The notes beneath the pieces are model-generated. The model was not told the origin of the DNA, did not search any database, and saw only the letters and a list, made by a program, of their open reading frames with translations. Positions 6,172-19,533 of a stretch of 64,000 nt of DNA are shown here, in pieces. A program made the translations under genes and the position numbers. The stretch is taken from contig NZ_CP081496.1 in the NCBI RefSeq assembly GCF_019774615.1, forward strand, positions 1,860,001 to 1,924,000, written 5' to 3'. Position 1 is the stretch's first letter. The number at the start of each line of letters is the position of its first letter. Source of the DNA: Streptomyces sp. BHT-5-2 (GTDB lineage Bacteria > Actinomycetota > Actinomycetes > Streptomycetales > Streptomycetaceae).

Positions 6172-7458
6172 TTGACGCACGAGTTTCCGGCGTCCGGCGA
6201 GCGGCGGGTGCCGCTGCCCGCGCCGCGGCCGACGCCGCAGGACCCGCCCGCAGGGGCGGGGGCGGTCGGGGGGCCGGGCCGGGCCGGGCTGTCCACGGCG
6301 ACGATCCCCGCGTCCTCGACGCCCGTGCCGGCGCCGCCCGGGCCGACGGTGGGCGGCAGCGGCAGCGGGCGGCACGCCAAGGGGCGCGCGGGCCGGGCCG
6401 GCGCCGGCCCGGCGGCGACCACCGAACCGCGGCCCCCCACCCGCGACGCGTTCTTCGACAACGCGAAGTACCTGGCCATCGTGCTGGTGGCGATGGGCCA
6501 CTCCTGGGAGCCGCTGCGCTCCGGCAGCCGGTCGGCGGCGGCGCTCTACATCGCCGTCTACGCGTTCCATATGCCGGCCTTCATCATCATCTCCGGCTAT
6601 TTCTCGCGCAGTTTCGACATGCGCCGGGACCGACTGCAACGGCTGATCACCGGCGTCGCCGTCCCGTACGTCCTCTTCGAGGTCGCCTACACCTTCTTCA
6701 AGCGCTGGGCGGACCACGACCCGGACTATCCGATCACCCTGCTCCAGCCGTGGTACCTGACGTGGTTCCTGGTCGCGCTCTTCGTCTGGCGCCTGACCAC
6801 CCCGCTGTGGAAGATCGTGCGCTGGCCGCTGCCGCTCGCGATGGTCATCGCGGTGCTGGCGTCCGTCTCACCGGAGATCGGTGACGATCTCAACCTCCAA
6901 CGGGTGCTCCAGTTCCTGCCGTTCTTCGTGCTGGGGCTCAACCTGCGGCCGGAGCACTTCCAGCTGCTGCGGCGCAAGGAGGTCCGGCTGGCCGCGCTGC
7001 CGGTCGTCGCCGGTGCGCTGGTCCTCGCCTACTGGGCCGCGCCGCGGATGAACGCCGCGTGGTTCTACCACCGCGACAGCGCACAGGAGTTGGGCGCCCC
7101 CTGGTGGAGCGGTGTGGTGATGACCCTGGCGATGTTCGGCTGCTCGCTGGTGCTGGTGGCCTGTTTCTTCGCCTGGGTGCCGGGCCGTCGGATGTGGTTC
7201 ACGGCGCTCGGCGCCGGCACCCTCTACGGCTATCTGCTGCACGGCTTCCTCGCCAAGGGCTCGCGCTTCTGGCACTGGTACGACAACCCCTGGCTGCACA
7301 CGCCCTGGGGGCAGGTGCTGCTCACCCTGGCCGCGGGCACGCTCGTCACGCTGCTGTGCACGCCGCCGGTGCAGCGGATCTTCCGCTTCGCCGTGGAGCC
7401 GAAGATGACCTGGGCGTTCAAGCCGGATCCGGTGGGGACGGCGCGCGGGCGCGGGTGA
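6172..7458 (+). CDS. Acyltransferase family 3 integral membrane protein
   Basis: 428 residues. A disordered Pro/Gly/Ala-rich N-terminus of about 95 residues precedes FFDNAKYLAIVLVAMGHSWEP, which carries the acyltransferase-3 signature His, then about ten hydrophobic helices (for example FHMPAFIIISGYFSRSF and PWYLTWFLVALFVWRL). Family members O-acylate exported glycans, antibiotics or lipids; the substrate here is unknown. TTG 6172 is used because it follows GGGAGGGCCG and no better ATG or GTG lies before the homologous part. Confidence 0.8.
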   Translation: MTHEFPASGERRVPLPAPRPTPQDPPAGAGAVGGPGRAGLSTATIPASSTPVPAPPGPTVGGSGSGRHAKGRAGRAGAGPAATTEPRPPTRDAFFDNAKYLAIVLVAMGHSWEPLRSGSRSAAALYIAVYAFHMPAFIIISGYFSRSFDMRRDRLQRLITGVAVPYVLFEVAYTFFKRWADHDPDYPITLLQPWYLTWFLVALFVWRLTTPLWKIVRWPLPLAMVIAVLASVSPEIGDDLNLQRVLQFLPFFVLGLNLRPEHFQLLRRKEVRLAALPVVAGALVLAYWAAPRMNAAWFYHRDSAQELGAPWWSGVVMTLAMFGCSLVLVACFFAWVPGRRMWFTALGAGTLYGYLLHGFLAKGSRFWHWYDNPWLHTPWGQVLLTLAAGTLVTLLCTPPVQRIFRFAVEPKMTWAFKPDPVGTARGRG

Positions 7459-13978: not shown

Positions 13979-14044
13979 ACTGCTTGTCGCTCCAGGCGGC
14001 GCGCACAGAAAACCCGAATGCTGCTCTCAGTGAAGAGGTTCGCC

Positions 14045-14299
14045 GTGAAGTTTGTCTCCAAGGCTGTAGTCCTGTCCGCCGCCGCGGGCATTGCCGTCGT
14101 GGGCGGTGCCGGAATCGCCAATGCCGGCGGGCACGGTAACGGCGCCCACGCCTCGGGCGCCGCCGTGGGTTCGCCCGGCGTGATCTCCGGCAACCTCATC
14201 CAGGTGCCGATCCACGTCCCGATCAACGTGTGCGGCAACACGGCCCAGTTCATCGGGGCGCTCAACCCGGCGTTCGGCAACATCTGCGTCAACCGCTGA
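14045..14299 (+). CDS. Short chaplin (ChpE/ChpH type)
   Basis: 84 residues. A Sec signal (FVSKAVVLSAAAGIAVVGGAGIANA) is followed by one chaplin domain: GSPGVISGN, then LIQVPIHVPINVCGN, then NPAFGNICVNR, with the two conserved Cys that form the intradomain disulfide. Chaplins are amyloid-forming surfactants that coat aerial hyphae and spores. GTG 14045 is chosen because GAAGAGG lies 6 bp upstream; starting at 14018 would add nine residues. It is the first gene of the surface-coat cluster. Confidence 0.93.
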   Translation: MKFVSKAVVLSAAAGIAVVGGAGIANAGGHGNGAHASGAAVGSPGVISGNLIQVPIHVPINVCGNTAQFIGALNPAFGNICVNR

Positions 14300-14547: not shown

Positions 14548-15012
14548 GTGATCAAGAAGGTTCTGGCCACGACGGCAGTAGCCGCTTCCATGGTCGGTAT
14601 CTCGGCGACGGTCGCCCCCCAGGCGATGGCGGCCGGCGGTCGCCACCACGGTACGACCACGATCAACGGCAACCGCAGCGTGAGCGCATTCGGCAACTCC
14701 ACCACGCACGGCAGGATGAGCCCGCAGCTGGAGCTCGTCCAGGGCTCGCTCAACAAGCCCTGCATCGGCCTGCCGATCAAGGGCAACTTCGGCTCGCTGT
14801 TCTCGTTCTTCGGAGCGGCCACGGTGCAGGACATCAACGTCCTGTCCTCGCCGCAGAACCAGCAGTGCACCGAGAACTCCACCCAGGCCAAGGGCGACGA
14901 GGCGCTGTCGCACATCTTGGACGACATCCCGATCCTGTCGGGCAACGGAGTCAAGAACGGCTTCAAGAGCGGTTTCAAGGATGGGCACAAGGGCGGACAC
15001 CGGAAGCGCTGA
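14548..15012 (+). CDS. rdl: Rodlin 1
   Basis: 154 residues. A signal peptide ending APQAMA is followed by the rodlin domain: MSPQLELVQGSLNKPCIGLP, then TVQDINVLSSPQNQQCTENS, then KGDEALSHILDDIPILSGN. Rodlins assemble with chaplins into the rodlet layer of aerial hyphae; they are known only from filamentous actinomycetes. The two Cys are conserved. The C-terminus carries a basic, glycine-rich extension (KNGFKSGFKDGHKGGHRKR) absent from rodlin 2. ATG 14548 follows GAAGGGTAAAAAGTG. Confidence 0.94.
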   Translation: MIKKVLATTAVAASMVGISATVAPQAMAAGGRHHGTTTINGNRSVSAFGNSTTHGRMSPQLELVQGSLNKPCIGLPIKGNFGSLFSFFGAATVQDINVLSSPQNQQCTENSTQAKGDEALSHILDDIPILSGNGVKNGFKSGFKDGHKGGHRKR

Positions 15013-15358: not shown

Positions 15359-15592
15359 GTGAAGTACGCAAAGGCTGCAGCCATCACTGCCGGCACACTC
15401 ATGGCAGTGGGCGCTGCTACGCCGGCTTTCGCCGACGCGCATGCCGCGGGCGGCGCGAAGGGCTCCCCGGGTGTCATCTCCGGCAATGTCGTCCAGGTTC
15501 CGATCTCCATTCCGATCAACCTGTGCGGCAACACCGTTGACTTCATCGGGATCCTCAACCCGGCGTTCGGGAACCGCTGCATCAACCGCTGA
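15359..15592 (+). CDS. Short chaplin 2
   Basis: 77 residues, beginning VKYAKAAAITAGTLMAVGAA, a signal peptide cleaved near AFADA, then one complete chaplin domain: KGSPGVISGN, VVQVPISIPINLCGN, and NPAFGNRCINR with both Cys. GTG 15359 has GGAAGGG 5-6 bp upstream. It differs from chaplin 1 mainly in the signal peptide and linker. Upstream, CGTTAC (15259-15264) could be a -35, but the following -10 is poor. Confidence 0.92.
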   Translation: MKYAKAAAITAGTLMAVGAATPAFADAHAAGGAKGSPGVISGNVVQVPISIPINLCGNTVDFIGILNPAFGNRCINR

Positions 15593-15872: not shown

Positions 15873-16178
15873 GTGAAGTACGCGAAGTCCGCCGCGGTTG
15901 TTGCCGGCTCCGTGATGGCGTTGGGCGCGGCTGCGGCCGTGCCCGCTTTCGCCGCCGAAACCGGTGCGCCGAACATGACCTCGCCGTCCATGAGCCTCAA
16001 TGGTGGCCTGATGAGCGCGCTGAACAGCGGGCAGCTGGACAGCCGCCAGGTGACGCCGCTGGTCGACACCGTCCGGGGTGTGGAGAAGACCACCAAGCAT
16101 CCCAAGCAGCTTCTCGGCGGCGCCACGGGGGCCGCCAAGGAGATCGCCATGCTGGGTGGGCTGCCGTTCGGCACGTGA
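15873..16178 (+). CDS. Small secreted protein of unknown family in the coat cluster
   Basis: 101 residues. The signal peptide (VKYAKSAAVVAGSVMALGAA, cleavage near AFAAE) is nearly the same as that of chaplin 2, but the mature part has no chaplin or rodlin domain and no Cys. It reads MTSPSMSLNGGLMSALNSGQ, then RQVTPLVDTVRGVEKTTK, then a glycine-rich end GGATGAAKEIAMLGGLPFGT. GTG 15873 follows AAGGGACACAGGGAC. A CGTTGA element at 15823-15828 could be its -10, without a good -35. I do not recognise the family. Position suggests a surface-layer component or assembly factor. Confidence 0.75.
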   Translation: MKYAKSAAVVAGSVMALGAAAAVPAFAAETGAPNMTSPSMSLNGGLMSALNSGQLDSRQVTPLVDTVRGVEKTTKHPKQLLGGATGAAKEIAMLGGLPFGT

Positions 16179-16467: not shown

Positions 16468-16881
16468 ATGATCAAGAAGACGCTGGCAACCGCCGCCGCG
16501 GCTGCCTCCATTGTCGGGGTGGCCGCGGCGGCCGCTCCTGAGGCAGTGGCCTCGGGCCATCAGCACGGCACGTCGACCGTCAACGGCAACGGTGCGAAGC
16601 AGTTCTTCGGAAACTCGACGACGTACGGCTACATGAGCCCGCAGATCGGTCTGATCCAGGGCTCGCTCAACAAGCCCTGTGTCGGCCTGCCGGCCAAGCT
16701 GAACCTCGGCTCGCTGGTCGGCGGAGTCCCGGTCACGGTGCAGGACATCAACGTCCTGTCCTCGCCGCAGAACCAGCAGTGCACCGAAAACTCCACCCAG
16801 GCCAAGGGCGACGAGCCGCTGTCGCACATCCTGGACGACATCCCGATCCTCTCCGGGAACGGCAAGCACAACCGCCGCTGA
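16468..16881 (+). CDS. rdl: Rodlin 2
   Basis: 137 residues. Signal peptide to about AAPEAVA, then the rodlin domain: GNSTTYGYMSPQIGLIQGSL, NKPCVGLPAKLNLGSL, VQDINVLSSPQNQQCTENS, and DEPLSHILDDIPILSGNG. It lacks the basic tail of rodlins 1 and 3 and so is closest to the classical RdlA/RdlB length. ATG 16468 follows GAAGGATCAATA. Confidence 0.94.
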   Translation: MIKKTLATAAAAASIVGVAAAAAPEAVASGHQHGTSTVNGNGAKQFFGNSTTYGYMSPQIGLIQGSLNKPCVGLPAKLNLGSLVGGVPVTVQDINVLSSPQNQQCTENSTQAKGDEPLSHILDDIPILSGNGKHNRR

Positions 16882-17267: not shown

Positions 17268-17702
17268 ATGAACAAGATGATGGCGGCCGCGGCGATCGCG
17301 GCATCGCTCGTCGGAATTTCGGCCGCGGCGGCTCCAGAGGCCCTGGCGGCCGGTGGTGAGCACGGCGGCGTCAAGACCGTCAACGGCAACGGTGCCAAGT
17401 CCGTGTACGGCAACTCCCGGACGAAGGGGAAGCTCAGCACCCAGCTCGGGCTCTTCCAGGGCAGCCTGAACGACCTGTGCATCGGCCTGCCCGCCAAGGG
17501 GAACTTCGGTTCGCTGGTCGGCTTCGTCCCGGTCACGGTGCAGGACATCAACGTCCTGTCCTCGCCGCAGAACCAGCAGTGCACCAGGAACTCGACGCAG
17601 GCCAAGCGCGACGAGGCGCTGTCGCACATTCTGGACGACGACCCGATCCTGTCGGGCAACGGGATCAAGAACGGGTTCAAGAGCCGAATGAAGAGGCGCT
17701 GA
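17268..17702 (+). CDS. rdl: Rodlin 3
   Basis: 144 residues with signal peptide to about APEALA and the full rodlin domain: STQLGLFQGSLNDLCIGLP, VQDINVLSSPQNQQCTRNS, DEALSHILDDDPILSGNG. The tail IKNGFKSRMKRR is basic like that of rodlin 1. NKPC is changed to NDLC. Bases 17696-17722, spanning the stop codon, are identical to 15006-15032 after rodlin 1, so the two descend from a duplication that included the 3' flank. Confidence 0.93.
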   Translation: MNKMMAAAAIAASLVGISAAAAPEALAAGGEHGGVKTVNGNGAKSVYGNSRTKGKLSTQLGLFQGSLNDLCIGLPAKGNFGSLVGFVPVTVQDINVLSSPQNQQCTRNSTQAKRDEALSHILDDDPILSGNGIKNGFKSRMKRR

Positions 17703-17738
17703 CGGGCGTCGGCCCCGGCCGACTGATCGTTTGTGACA

Positions 17739-17777
17739 CCGGGCGGCCGGCGGGCGAGTGCGCCGCCGGCCGCCCGG
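17739..17777 (+). terminator. Terminator after rodlin 3
   Basis: CCGGGCGGCCGGCGG (17739-17753) pairs perfectly over 15 bp with 17763-17777 across a 9-base loop. It is homologous to the hairpin after rodlin 1. Confidence 0.75.
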
Positions 17778-17838
17778 TCGTACGGGCACGACGGGCTGCG
17801 GGCGGGCAGCCCGGACACGAGCTGTGGAGTGAGGGGAC

Positions 17839-18357
17839 ATGCGACGGAGCCTGAAGGCGTGCGTGCTCGCGGTGGCGGTTTCGGGGGTGCTGGGGGCGGG
17901 TGCCGGTCCGTCGTTCGCGGGCGCCGGTGGGCCGGGCGGCGCCGTGGACGGACCCGGCGCGCTGGCCGGGAACGCGGTCCGGGTGGAGGTGCACGCCCCG
18001 TTCACCGTGTGCGGCAACTCCCTTGTGGTGGTGGGGGTGTTGAACTCGGGAACGGGGGACCGGTGCGGGAACGGCCCGGCGGCCGGGCGGGCCGTACCGG
18101 TGCGGCGTGCCGCGGAGCCGACGAAGCACCGGCGGCGGGTGGCCGGGGGGCCGGCGCGGACATCCCGGCTGCACACCGGGGCGCGGAGCGGGCACGACCC
18201 CCGGGTGGGGGCGGTGGCGCGGGCCGGGCGGTCGGCGGGGAAGGCACTGCTGGCGGCCAGTGGTGCGGAGCGGCTGGAGGTGGCGGCCGCGACCGGCGGC
18301 GGGCTGCTGGTCGCCGGGGCGGCGCTGCTGCGCCGGGCCCGCAGGCGCCAGGGGTGA
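17839..18357 (+). CDS. Long chaplin with one chaplin domain and a variant sortase signal
   Basis: 172 residues. Signal peptide to about SFAGA, then one divergent chaplin domain (residues 38-78: GPGALAGN, VEVHAPFTVCGN, and LNSGTGDRCGN with both Cys). A basic, low-complexity linker of about 55 residues follows. The C-terminus has sorting-signal layout: LAASG (138-142), AERLE, hydrophobic TGGGLLVAGAALL, then RRARRR. Known long chaplins (ChpA-C) have two chaplin domains and an LAXTG signal for class E sortase; here one domain is missing and Ser replaces Thr. ATG 17839 follows GTGAGGGGAC. Confidence 0.85.
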   Translation: MRRSLKACVLAVAVSGVLGAGAGPSFAGAGGPGGAVDGPGALAGNAVRVEVHAPFTVCGNSLVVVGVLNSGTGDRCGNGPAAGRAVPVRRAAEPTKHRRRVAGGPARTSRLHTGARSGHDPRVGAVARAGRSAGKALLAASGAERLEVAAATGGGLLVAGAALLRRARRRQG

Positions 18358-18687
18358 GCGCGGGTCGTCGGAGGCTCCGGTGGGGCTCCGGCGGCCGGCC
18401 GAGCGGTGCGGCGGGCCGCTCGGCCTGGGCCACCCGGTCGAGGCGGCGCCCTGGGCGCCGGACGTCCCGACCGCGGCCGTCGTACCGCTGGCGCCGGGCG
18501 GAGCTGCGGCTGGAAGCCGCCCGGGGATACGACGGGTCGTGCGGATCAACGGGTGAGAAAGGTGCCCGGCACGGGAAGGATCGTTCTTTCGCTCGTTGGT
18601 GGGATGCGTCTTAACCGGATGTTCAGGGAAGAATGGGGGCAAAAGCCATAAAGGCTATTAAGCGTAGTTAAGTGAGGGGGAGTGGGC
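18358..18687. other. 330-bp intergenic region
   Basis: No gene seen. The last 70 bp are markedly AT-rich for this genome (ATAAAGGCTATTAAGCGTAG and following), ending in AGTTAAGTGAGGGGG, which supplies the ribosome-binding site of the nitrilase gene. This is the probable promoter, but no clear -10/-35 pair was assigned. Confidence 0.5.
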
Positions 18688-19533
18688 ATGCTTGTCGCGC
18701 TGGCGCAGACCGACTGCGCACTGGGGGACGTACCGGAGAACCTGCGGGTCGCACGGGAGCAGATCGAGCAGGCCGCGGCGCAGGGGGCGGATCTCGTCGT
18801 CTTTCCCGAACTCAGCCTGCACGGCTATCACTTGGGGGCGCTCAAGCGGGACGAGTCCATCGAGGCGGACGATCCGCGGCTGCGGGAGCTGAGCTCCCTG
18901 GGGCCGGATGTGCTGGTCGGGTTCCACGAGCACACCCGGTTGCGGGCGTACAACACCTCCGCGTACTACGTGGACGGGGAGCTGGCGCATGCACACCGCA
19001 AGCTCTATCTGCCGAACTATCTGGCCTGGGAGGAGCGCAAGCACGTCAGCCCGGGGCAGTCGCTGCGCTCGTACGAGCTGGCGAAGTCGACGAGCGGGGG
19101 GCGGGGGGCGACGCTGGTCTGCAACGACGCCTGGCAGCCGGTGCTGCCGTGGCTGGCGGTGCAGGACGGGGCCGAGGTGCTGTTTGTGCCGACCAACAGC
19201 GCGGCGAGCCTGGACCCGGAGGCGATGGACACCGGGCTGTACTGGGACACCCTGCTGTCCTATACGGCGCGGATGTTGCAGTGCTGGGTGGTCTTCGTCA
19301 ACCGGGTGGGCAACGAGCACGGGGCGTCGTTCTGGGGCGGCTCGCGGGTGGTGGATCCGCGGGGCGCGGTGGTGGCGCAGGCGCCCAAGTGGGAGCCCTC
19401 GCTGGTCACGGTGGAGATCGATCCGGCCGAGGCGCGCCGGCAGCGGCGGGCGGTGCCGCTGGTCGCGGAGGCCCGGCTGGGGCTGGTCGACCGCGAGGTG
19501 CGGCGGTTGATCGACGAGGGCGGCGACCACTGA
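18688..19533 (+). CDS. Carbon-nitrogen hydrolase (nitrilase superfamily)
   Basis: 281 residues with the Glu-Lys-Cys triad: E41 in VVFPELSLHGY, K105 in HRKLYLPN and C145 in TLVCNDAW. Members hydrolyse nitriles, amides or carbamoyl groups; the motif around Cys (CNDAW) does not allow a substrate call. ATG 18688 is preferred since GAGGGGG lies 8 bp upstream; GTG 18682 would sit too close to it. The gene stands alone, converging on tatA. Confidence 0.85.
   Translation: MLVALAQTDCALGDVPENLRVAREQIEQAAAQGADLVVFPELSLHGYHLGALKRDESIEADDPRLRELSSLGPDVLVGFHEHTRLRAYNTSAYYVDGELAHAHRKLYLPNYLAWEERKHVSPGQSLRSYELAKSTSGGRGATLVCNDAWQPVLPWLAVQDGAEVLFVPTNSAASLDPEAMDTGLYWDTLLSYTARMLQCWVVFVNRVGNEHGASFWGGSRVVDPRGAVVAQAPKWEPSLVTVEIDPAEARRQRRAVPLVAEARLGLVDREVRRLIDEGGDH

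Follow-up and report, generated by a model that had tools for sequence, protein, structure and literature searches.

The window, that is, the whole stretch of DNA that was analysed (64,000 nucleotides, C1:1860001-1924000), lies in the 9.13-Mb, two-contig genome of Streptomyces sp. BHT-5-2 (G000; G, C and L numbers are our own labels for genomes, contigs and loci). It contains a cluster of chaplin and rodlin genes in the order short chaplin, rodlin, short chaplin, small secreted-looking protein, rodlin, rodlin, long chaplin, followed by a gene that we take to be nitrilase-like and another that is presumably tatA-like. The features are as follows:

14018-14299, + strand: short chaplin, first gene of the cluster (PF03777, 88.4 bits)
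14548-15012, + strand: rodlin 1 (NF041022, 209.5 bits)
15359-15592, + strand: second short chaplin (PF03777, 97.5 bits)
15873-16178, + strand: small secreted-looking protein, conserved in the cluster, without a Pfam match and without an NCBIfam match near the cut-off
16468-16881, + strand: rodlin 2 (NF041022, 227.4 bits)
17268-17702, + strand: rodlin 3 (NF041022, 200.1 bits)
17738-17778, no strand: perfect 16-bp inverted repeat in the intergenic stretch from rodlin 3 to the long chaplin (repeat and folding analysis)
17839-18357, + strand: rodlin-linked long chaplin with a single chaplin domain (ORF and translation, PF03777, orthologues)
17839-17922, + strand: putative signal peptide, residues 1-28, predicted boundary (basic then hydrophobic N-terminus, aligned with orthologues)
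17905-18072, + strand: chaplin domain, residues 23-78, with C58 and C76 kept and the change N74D (Pfam, alignment)
18079-18249, + strand: basic, variable linker, residues 81-137, with a conserved RAGxSAGxAL run at its end (translation, alignment)
18250-18264, + strand: LAASG sorting motif, residues 138-142, with Ser141 encoded by AGT at 18259-18261 (translation)
18265-18354, + strand: hydrophobic segment and Arg-rich tail (translation, C-terminal alignment)
18682-19533, + strand: presumed nitrilase-like gene flanking the cluster, used as synteny marker and tree gene

The long chaplin reading frame extends from the ATG at 17839 to the TGA at 18355-18357 and translates into 172 amino acids; an RBS-like stretch (gagtgagggg) lies directly 5' of the start codon. 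The Pfam profile PF03777 (ChpA-C) matches the protein over one stretch, residues 23-78, with 50.2 bits (E = 2.4e-13), which passes the curated cut-off of 21 bits. C58 and C76 are invariant in a 10-row alignment. Three GN turns are described as a usual chaplin feature (PMC13251363); the focal domain has two of the three (residues 44-45 and 59-60), and the third is GD due to N74D, a change found only in the window and not in G743, which retains GN. The protein was filed as a chaplin because of its profile score and orthology, and not by its count of GN turns. Downstream of LAASG, the sequence continues with AERLEVAAATGGGLLVAGAALL, then RRARRRQG. LAASG aligns column for column with LASTG and LAATG of the orthologues and is thus not a chance string. 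A sequence-only reading had described one chaplin domain, a basic linker, LAASG at residues 138-142, a hydrophobic helix and a tail rich in Arg, and this anatomy was reproduced by the translation and by PF03777. At its Leu, Ala and Gly the motif fits the LAXTG pentapeptide, while Ser replaces Thr at position 4 (P1); the protein is not filed as an LAXTG protein and is claimed only to work like one. It also has one Pfam stretch in place of the two chaplin domains of the ChpA-C type. Since its orthologues likewise have one domain, we regard it as a long chaplin by anatomy, but not of the ChpA-C type.

The family was followed with a C-terminal profile of 46 columns, built from 15 rows. Among 392 genomes of the genus, 11 scored at least 66.8 bits and the next match scored 45.7 bits. 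A second draw of 393 genomes from the taxonomic family gave 10 matches, four of them new, and 16 of the 17 genera gave none. Three further species, S. noursei, S. inhibens and S. sioyaensis, came from named records only. With named records drawn from the best 80 of 354 loci, the family comprises at least 18 species. The named orthologues are all from Streptomyces, S. noursei being the nearest among the matches listed, and the one-domain long chaplin at the end of the cluster belongs to the S. noursei/S. lydicus group. One chaplin domain was present in each of the 18 species found, as seen with a home-made HMM (11 of 11), with Pfam (eight of eight orthologues) and by direct reading (four), and as judged from the motif count only in S. 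inhibens and S. sioyaensis.

The 127 places matched by the C-terminal profile yielded 125 long chaplins (L195 and L256 gave none). Collected with the signal profile of the family itself, they are biased in favour of the focal family and of a Thr or Ser at P1. In this sample, a small home-made chaplin HMM found two domains in 102 proteins, one in 22 and three in 1. Half of the one-domain proteins (11 of 22) are the focal family, and at 22 of 125, one-domain long chaplins are ordinary. The window's genome itself has two other long chaplins, one with a single domain and LAKTG (L001) and one with two domains and LAHTG; L001 is not matched by the family profile and falls outside the sample. The sequence-only reading had presented the focal protein as a long chaplin reduced to one domain. 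This part of it did not hold: every orthologue found has one domain, so there was no reduction, and domain loss in the window lineage was rejected. A close homologue with two domains, proposed as a sign of assembly error, was looked for, and the orthologues found all have one.

All 18 orthologous loci examined, which represent 17 species (16 loci from 15 species, L098 and L214 being from the same genome, plus L351 and L354; the paralogue region L219 was left out), combine the long chaplin with the second short chaplin and the gene for the small secreted-looking protein. Rodlins are found at 16 of the 18 loci (14 of the 16 and both of the two others) and are absent around G365 and G090. Genome-wide, nine of 11 genomes were positive for rodlins, and these same two genomes had none. 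The first short chaplin was undetected at four of the 16 loci (L081, L209, L211 and L216) and partial in L073, and L082 ends ahead of the nitrilase-like gene.

The two rodlin-less species are sisters, in which the small secreted-looking protein has ≈43% identity. Their long chaplins (L217 in G365 and L218 in G090) have the weakest chaplin domains scanned, at 35.0 and 37.6 bits, and have kept LASTG. This suggests that the chaplin domain of the long chaplin relaxes upon rodlin loss, probably in a single event; rodlins are described as readily lost (PMC4255298). In CB02959 (G175, L215, about 7258-7434), only the first 43-47 residues of rodlin 1 can be recognised.

Within the family, P1 is Ser in four and Thr in 14 of the 18 species found. 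The window has LAASG with the codon AGT, its sister G743 has LAASG with AGC, and S. rhizoryzae (G265) and NRRL F-4489 (G695) both have LASSG with AGC; all four retain the motif's Leu, Ala and Gly. Since AGT and AGC are synonymous, the codon changed between the window and G743 while the serine was kept. Alignment of the signal regions, which had been proposed from the sequence, gave Thr at P1 in 123 of the 125 long chaplins and Ser in two (the window and G265). A class-E-type signal with Ser at P1 on a protein that is a long chaplin by anatomy was confirmed, and it is rare in this sample drawn with the family's own C-terminal profile. In the window's genome, the general LPXTG model TIGR01167 gave 20 matches, nine without a motif and 11 with the appearance of real signals, each of which has Thr at P1 (five LAETG, two LAKTG, two LAHTG, one LASTG and one LPQTG). 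The focal LAASG signal is not among these matches, and the signal of the two-domain LAHTG chaplin was also missed. The serine at P1 is unusual but real, and the protein that carries it is a long chaplin of a conserved, rodlin-linked kind with one chaplin domain.

A tree was calculated from eight neighbouring genes in 11 genomes (3084 columns; rodlins assigned by order, rodlin 1 of G175 partial), in which all 8 inner branches were starred. The window and G743 group together, followed by S. noursei and then CB02959; S. rhizoryzae and NRRL F-4489 form a pair outside, and the five other orthologue carriers constitute the outgroup. Since the serine species are separated by two threonine species, two gains require the fewest changes, and it is most parsimonious that the change from Thr to Ser arose twice. 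Each of the two gains has been retained through a speciation. A single serine clade was rejected by the eight-gene set (p-AU 1e-71), and a single inheritance of the serine was rejected on these grounds, although the nitrilase gene alone, whose tree has the lineages in the same groups (the window, G743 and S. noursei at 88/90), does not reject it (p-AU 0.09). In the focal gene's own tree, the window copy is found beside that of S. noursei, which has Thr, with moderate support (83/84).

Selection was analysed with a codon model with codon-position frequencies on a six-species tree (148 codons). Over the clade, omega was 0.255 for the whole gene (lnL -1526.76 vs. -1565.84 at omega 1) and 0.42 for the chaplin domain (-566.92 vs. 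-572.75). Constraint is strongest over the C-terminal 52 codons, with an omega of 0.12 (-453.77 vs. -479.14). On the window branch, the C-terminus had an omega of 0.126, with omega 1 not rejected over these 52 codons (lnL -454.25 vs. -453.77), and neutrality of the whole gene was not rejected in the six-species run (lnL -1527.01 at omega 1 vs. -1526.14). A five-species run gave a whole-gene omega of 0.44 on this branch, with omega 1 mildly disfavoured (lnL -1381.83 vs. -1379.53). The chaplin domain had an omega of 1.09 on the window branch and 0.37 elsewhere, a difference that was not significant (lnL -566.05 with two omegas vs. -566.92 with one). By NG86, omega was 0.87-1.09 for pairs that include the window, 0.38-0.81 for pairs without it and 0.10-0.60 for neighbouring genes. 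NG86 ignores the strong GC bias, and the codon model was therefore trusted over it. Neutral drift of the whole gene, at which NG86 had hinted, was rejected by the clade-wide codon model; for the window branch alone it was not rejected.

The window copy carries 11 replacements at alignment columns on which the remaining five clade members agree, and G743 has one (binomial p, computed by hand, of about 0.006, or of 0.02 when two gap-adjacent sites are dropped). In the neighbouring genes, the branch lengths of the two are about equal (0.018 and 0.017). Together, the omega values and replacement counts indicate that the anchor is conserved across the clade and that the displayed domain is apparently changing fast in the window lineage. 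The 11 replacements unique to the window copy include N74D in a GN turn, so that its chaplin domain may be decaying. The serine predates this acceleration, since G743, with its one such change, already has it.

The window's genome has six sortase-family matches, three of which are clustered. An SrtE1-like protein is encoded at C1:1464512-1465456, so that a class E sortase is present; it matches the structure of S. coelicolor SrtE1 (PDB 5cuw) with an E value of 9.9e-77, and a second, neighbouring sortase does so with 1.2e-42. Relatives were present in all 11 family genomes searched. In the catalytic domains of SrtE1 and SrtE2 from 11 genomes, no column was unique to the serine pair (the window and G265) relative to the nine threonine genomes; three columns of SrtE1 were unique to the pair, all in the N-terminal extension. 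(G743, NRRL F-4489, S. noursei and a third SrtE-like gene were left out of this comparison.) Co-adaptation of the sortase to serine was rejected, since neither catalytic domain had a column specific to the serine pair. For the same reason, if LAASG and LASSG proteins are anchored, it would be ordinary SrtE that does it.

Replacing Thr by Ser removes one methyl but leaves the hydroxyl in place, so that reduced but real sortase activity would be the natural expectation. In SrtA of S. pyogenes, a class A enzyme, the hydroxyl of the P1 Thr contacts the amide at the position of the catalytic Cys, while its methyl points toward Ala and Val (PMC9520033), and in a model of C. difficile SrtB the P1 hydroxyl is bonded to the catalytic Arg (PMC5118464). 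Since it is the hydroxyl that makes the contact with the catalytic-Cys amide, serine would preserve the polar contact. SrtE1 is reported to cut LAXTG between Thr and Gly and to prefer Ala to Pro at P3, and a PXT core is said to occur in the signals of all sortases characterised to date; the excerpted text of the same paper covers P3 and P4, and changes at P1 were not found in it (PMC5148588). According to a review (PMC9126251), the activity-enhanced eSrtA is tabulated with LPEXG substrates in which X is A, C or S, and streptococcal sortases favour LPXLG, so that class A enzymes do not strictly require Thr at P1. The same review describes a SrtA variant with a strong preference for LPXSG over LPXTG; it had to be evolved and needed nine mutations, a hint that position 4 of the motif matters. 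LPKSG is the predicted anchor motif of E. faecium PrpA (PMC4682149) and a precedent for serine; PrpA is like the focal protein in having a Ser at P1, but is an enterococcal LPxTG-type protein with Pro at P3 and no chaplin. Judged from titles and abstracts, no literature on LAXSG, LAASG or LASSG concerned sortases, and neither a SrtE assay on a Ser-P1 peptide nor a test of the P1 Thr in the class E signal was found in the texts available.

We consider it likely that the gene encodes an intact one-domain long chaplin that is exported, cut after Ser141 by ordinary class E sortases and anchored in the wall as an attachment point for the coat. We infer the secretion, the cleavage after serine, the wall linkage and the coat function. 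The signal peptide would export the protein, and the C-terminal helix and Arg tail would hold it in the membrane until a class E sortase cuts after Ser141 and joins it to lipid II. The chaplin domain would then be displayed on the aerial hypha, where it could serve as the attachment point for a coat of short chaplins and rodlins; the domain and its gene neighbourhood are what point to fibril assembly with these proteins. SrtE would tolerate the serine, perhaps at a lower rate. Since constraint on the protein is strongest in its C-terminal region, and since the SrtE catalytic domains compared have no serine-specific change, SrtE probably still anchors the focal protein.

We considered the possibility that serine at P1 blocks or greatly slows the sortase, leaving the protein bound to the membrane by its uncleaved C-terminal helix, as the sequence-only reading had also suggested. 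Thr is near-invariant at this position, both in the long chaplins (123 of 125) and in the 11 TIGR01167 signals of the window's genome, and in class A enzymes the specificity at P1 may act as a barrier (PMC9126251). However, the L-A-x-[ST]-G core of a signal that is no longer cut should drift, together with the residues around it, yet the C-terminal 52 codons have an omega of 0.12 (0.126 on the window branch), and the Leu, Ala and Gly are kept in all four serine species. A role as membrane anchor could also conserve the helix and tail, and over 52 codons the window branch is indistinguishable from omega 1. Given the purifying selection on the C-terminus, two serine gains that were each kept past speciation and SrtE catalytic domains that lack a serine-specific change, this reading is disfavoured, and we regard it as rather unlikely.

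There is a small chance that the window gene is under relaxed constraint and heading for loss, in which case the divergent chaplin domain would reflect decay and the serine would be incidental. The 11 window-only replacements vs. one in G743, the chaplin-domain omega of 1.09 on a branch where neutrality is not rejected, and NG86 values near 1 are in keeping with such decay, as is the PF03777 score, which is 50.2 bits in the window and 61.7-76.5 bits in six rodlin-carrying orthologues. However, the difference in omega between branches is not significant, and in the five-species run omega 1 was mildly disfavoured. The reading frame, both cysteines, the N-terminal signal and the sorting signal are all intact, and the serine is older than the acceleration. 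It is similarly improbable, in our estimate, that class E sortases naturally process LAxSG as a second signal and that the change to serine was selected twice, retuning the rate or timing of anchoring relative to the Thr long chaplins of the same cell. A base-call or assembly error almost certainly does not explain the serine and was rejected: AGT was read at 18259, as the sequence-only reading had it, while G743 has LAASG with a different serine codon, and S. rhizoryzae and NRRL F-4489 have LASSG.

The focal protein is like ChpA-C of S. coelicolor in its PF03777 domain and C-terminal sortase signal (PMC3079736, PMC13251363), but the focal family has one domain instead of two, Ser at P1 in four of the 18 species found, and a position at the end of a chaplin-rodlin cluster. 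It shares the single chaplin domain with the short chaplins ChpD-H, which are small proteins and, as described, do not carry the ChpA-C sorting signal (PMC3079736). Other single-domain long chaplins (L001 and 11 more in the sample) also combine one domain with a class-E-type signal, but differ in their C-terminal sequence, the focal family scoring at least 66.8 bits and all others at most 45.7. One-domain long chaplins form a regular class, so that two domains in a long chaplin is a rule for ChpA-C and not a general one. In a literature search for single-domain long chaplins, the phrase was found to mean short chaplins in the excerpted text of PMC3079736, and an earlier description is possible.

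The class E signal has been taken to include Thr at P1. The locus offers a natural, matched series of substrates for sortase E: LASTG in S. noursei and CB02959, LASSG in S. rhizoryzae and NRRL F-4489, and LAASG in the window species and G743.

A few additional observations concern the surroundings of the gene. The 139-nt intergenic RNA between rodlin 3 and the long chaplin has a folding z of -3.6, and inverted repeats similar to that at 17738-17778 occur at the corresponding position in S. noursei, NRRL F-4489, G265 and S. lydicus; the repeat is likely to be the 3' end or a processing stem of the rodlin transcript. A fourth rodlin gene lies distant from the cluster at G000:C1:177786-178166. 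The window's genome also encodes a ChpE-like short chaplin without cysteines (L010, G000:C1:5616914-5617081); ChpE itself lacks cysteines, yet counts as a chaplin (PMC3079736).
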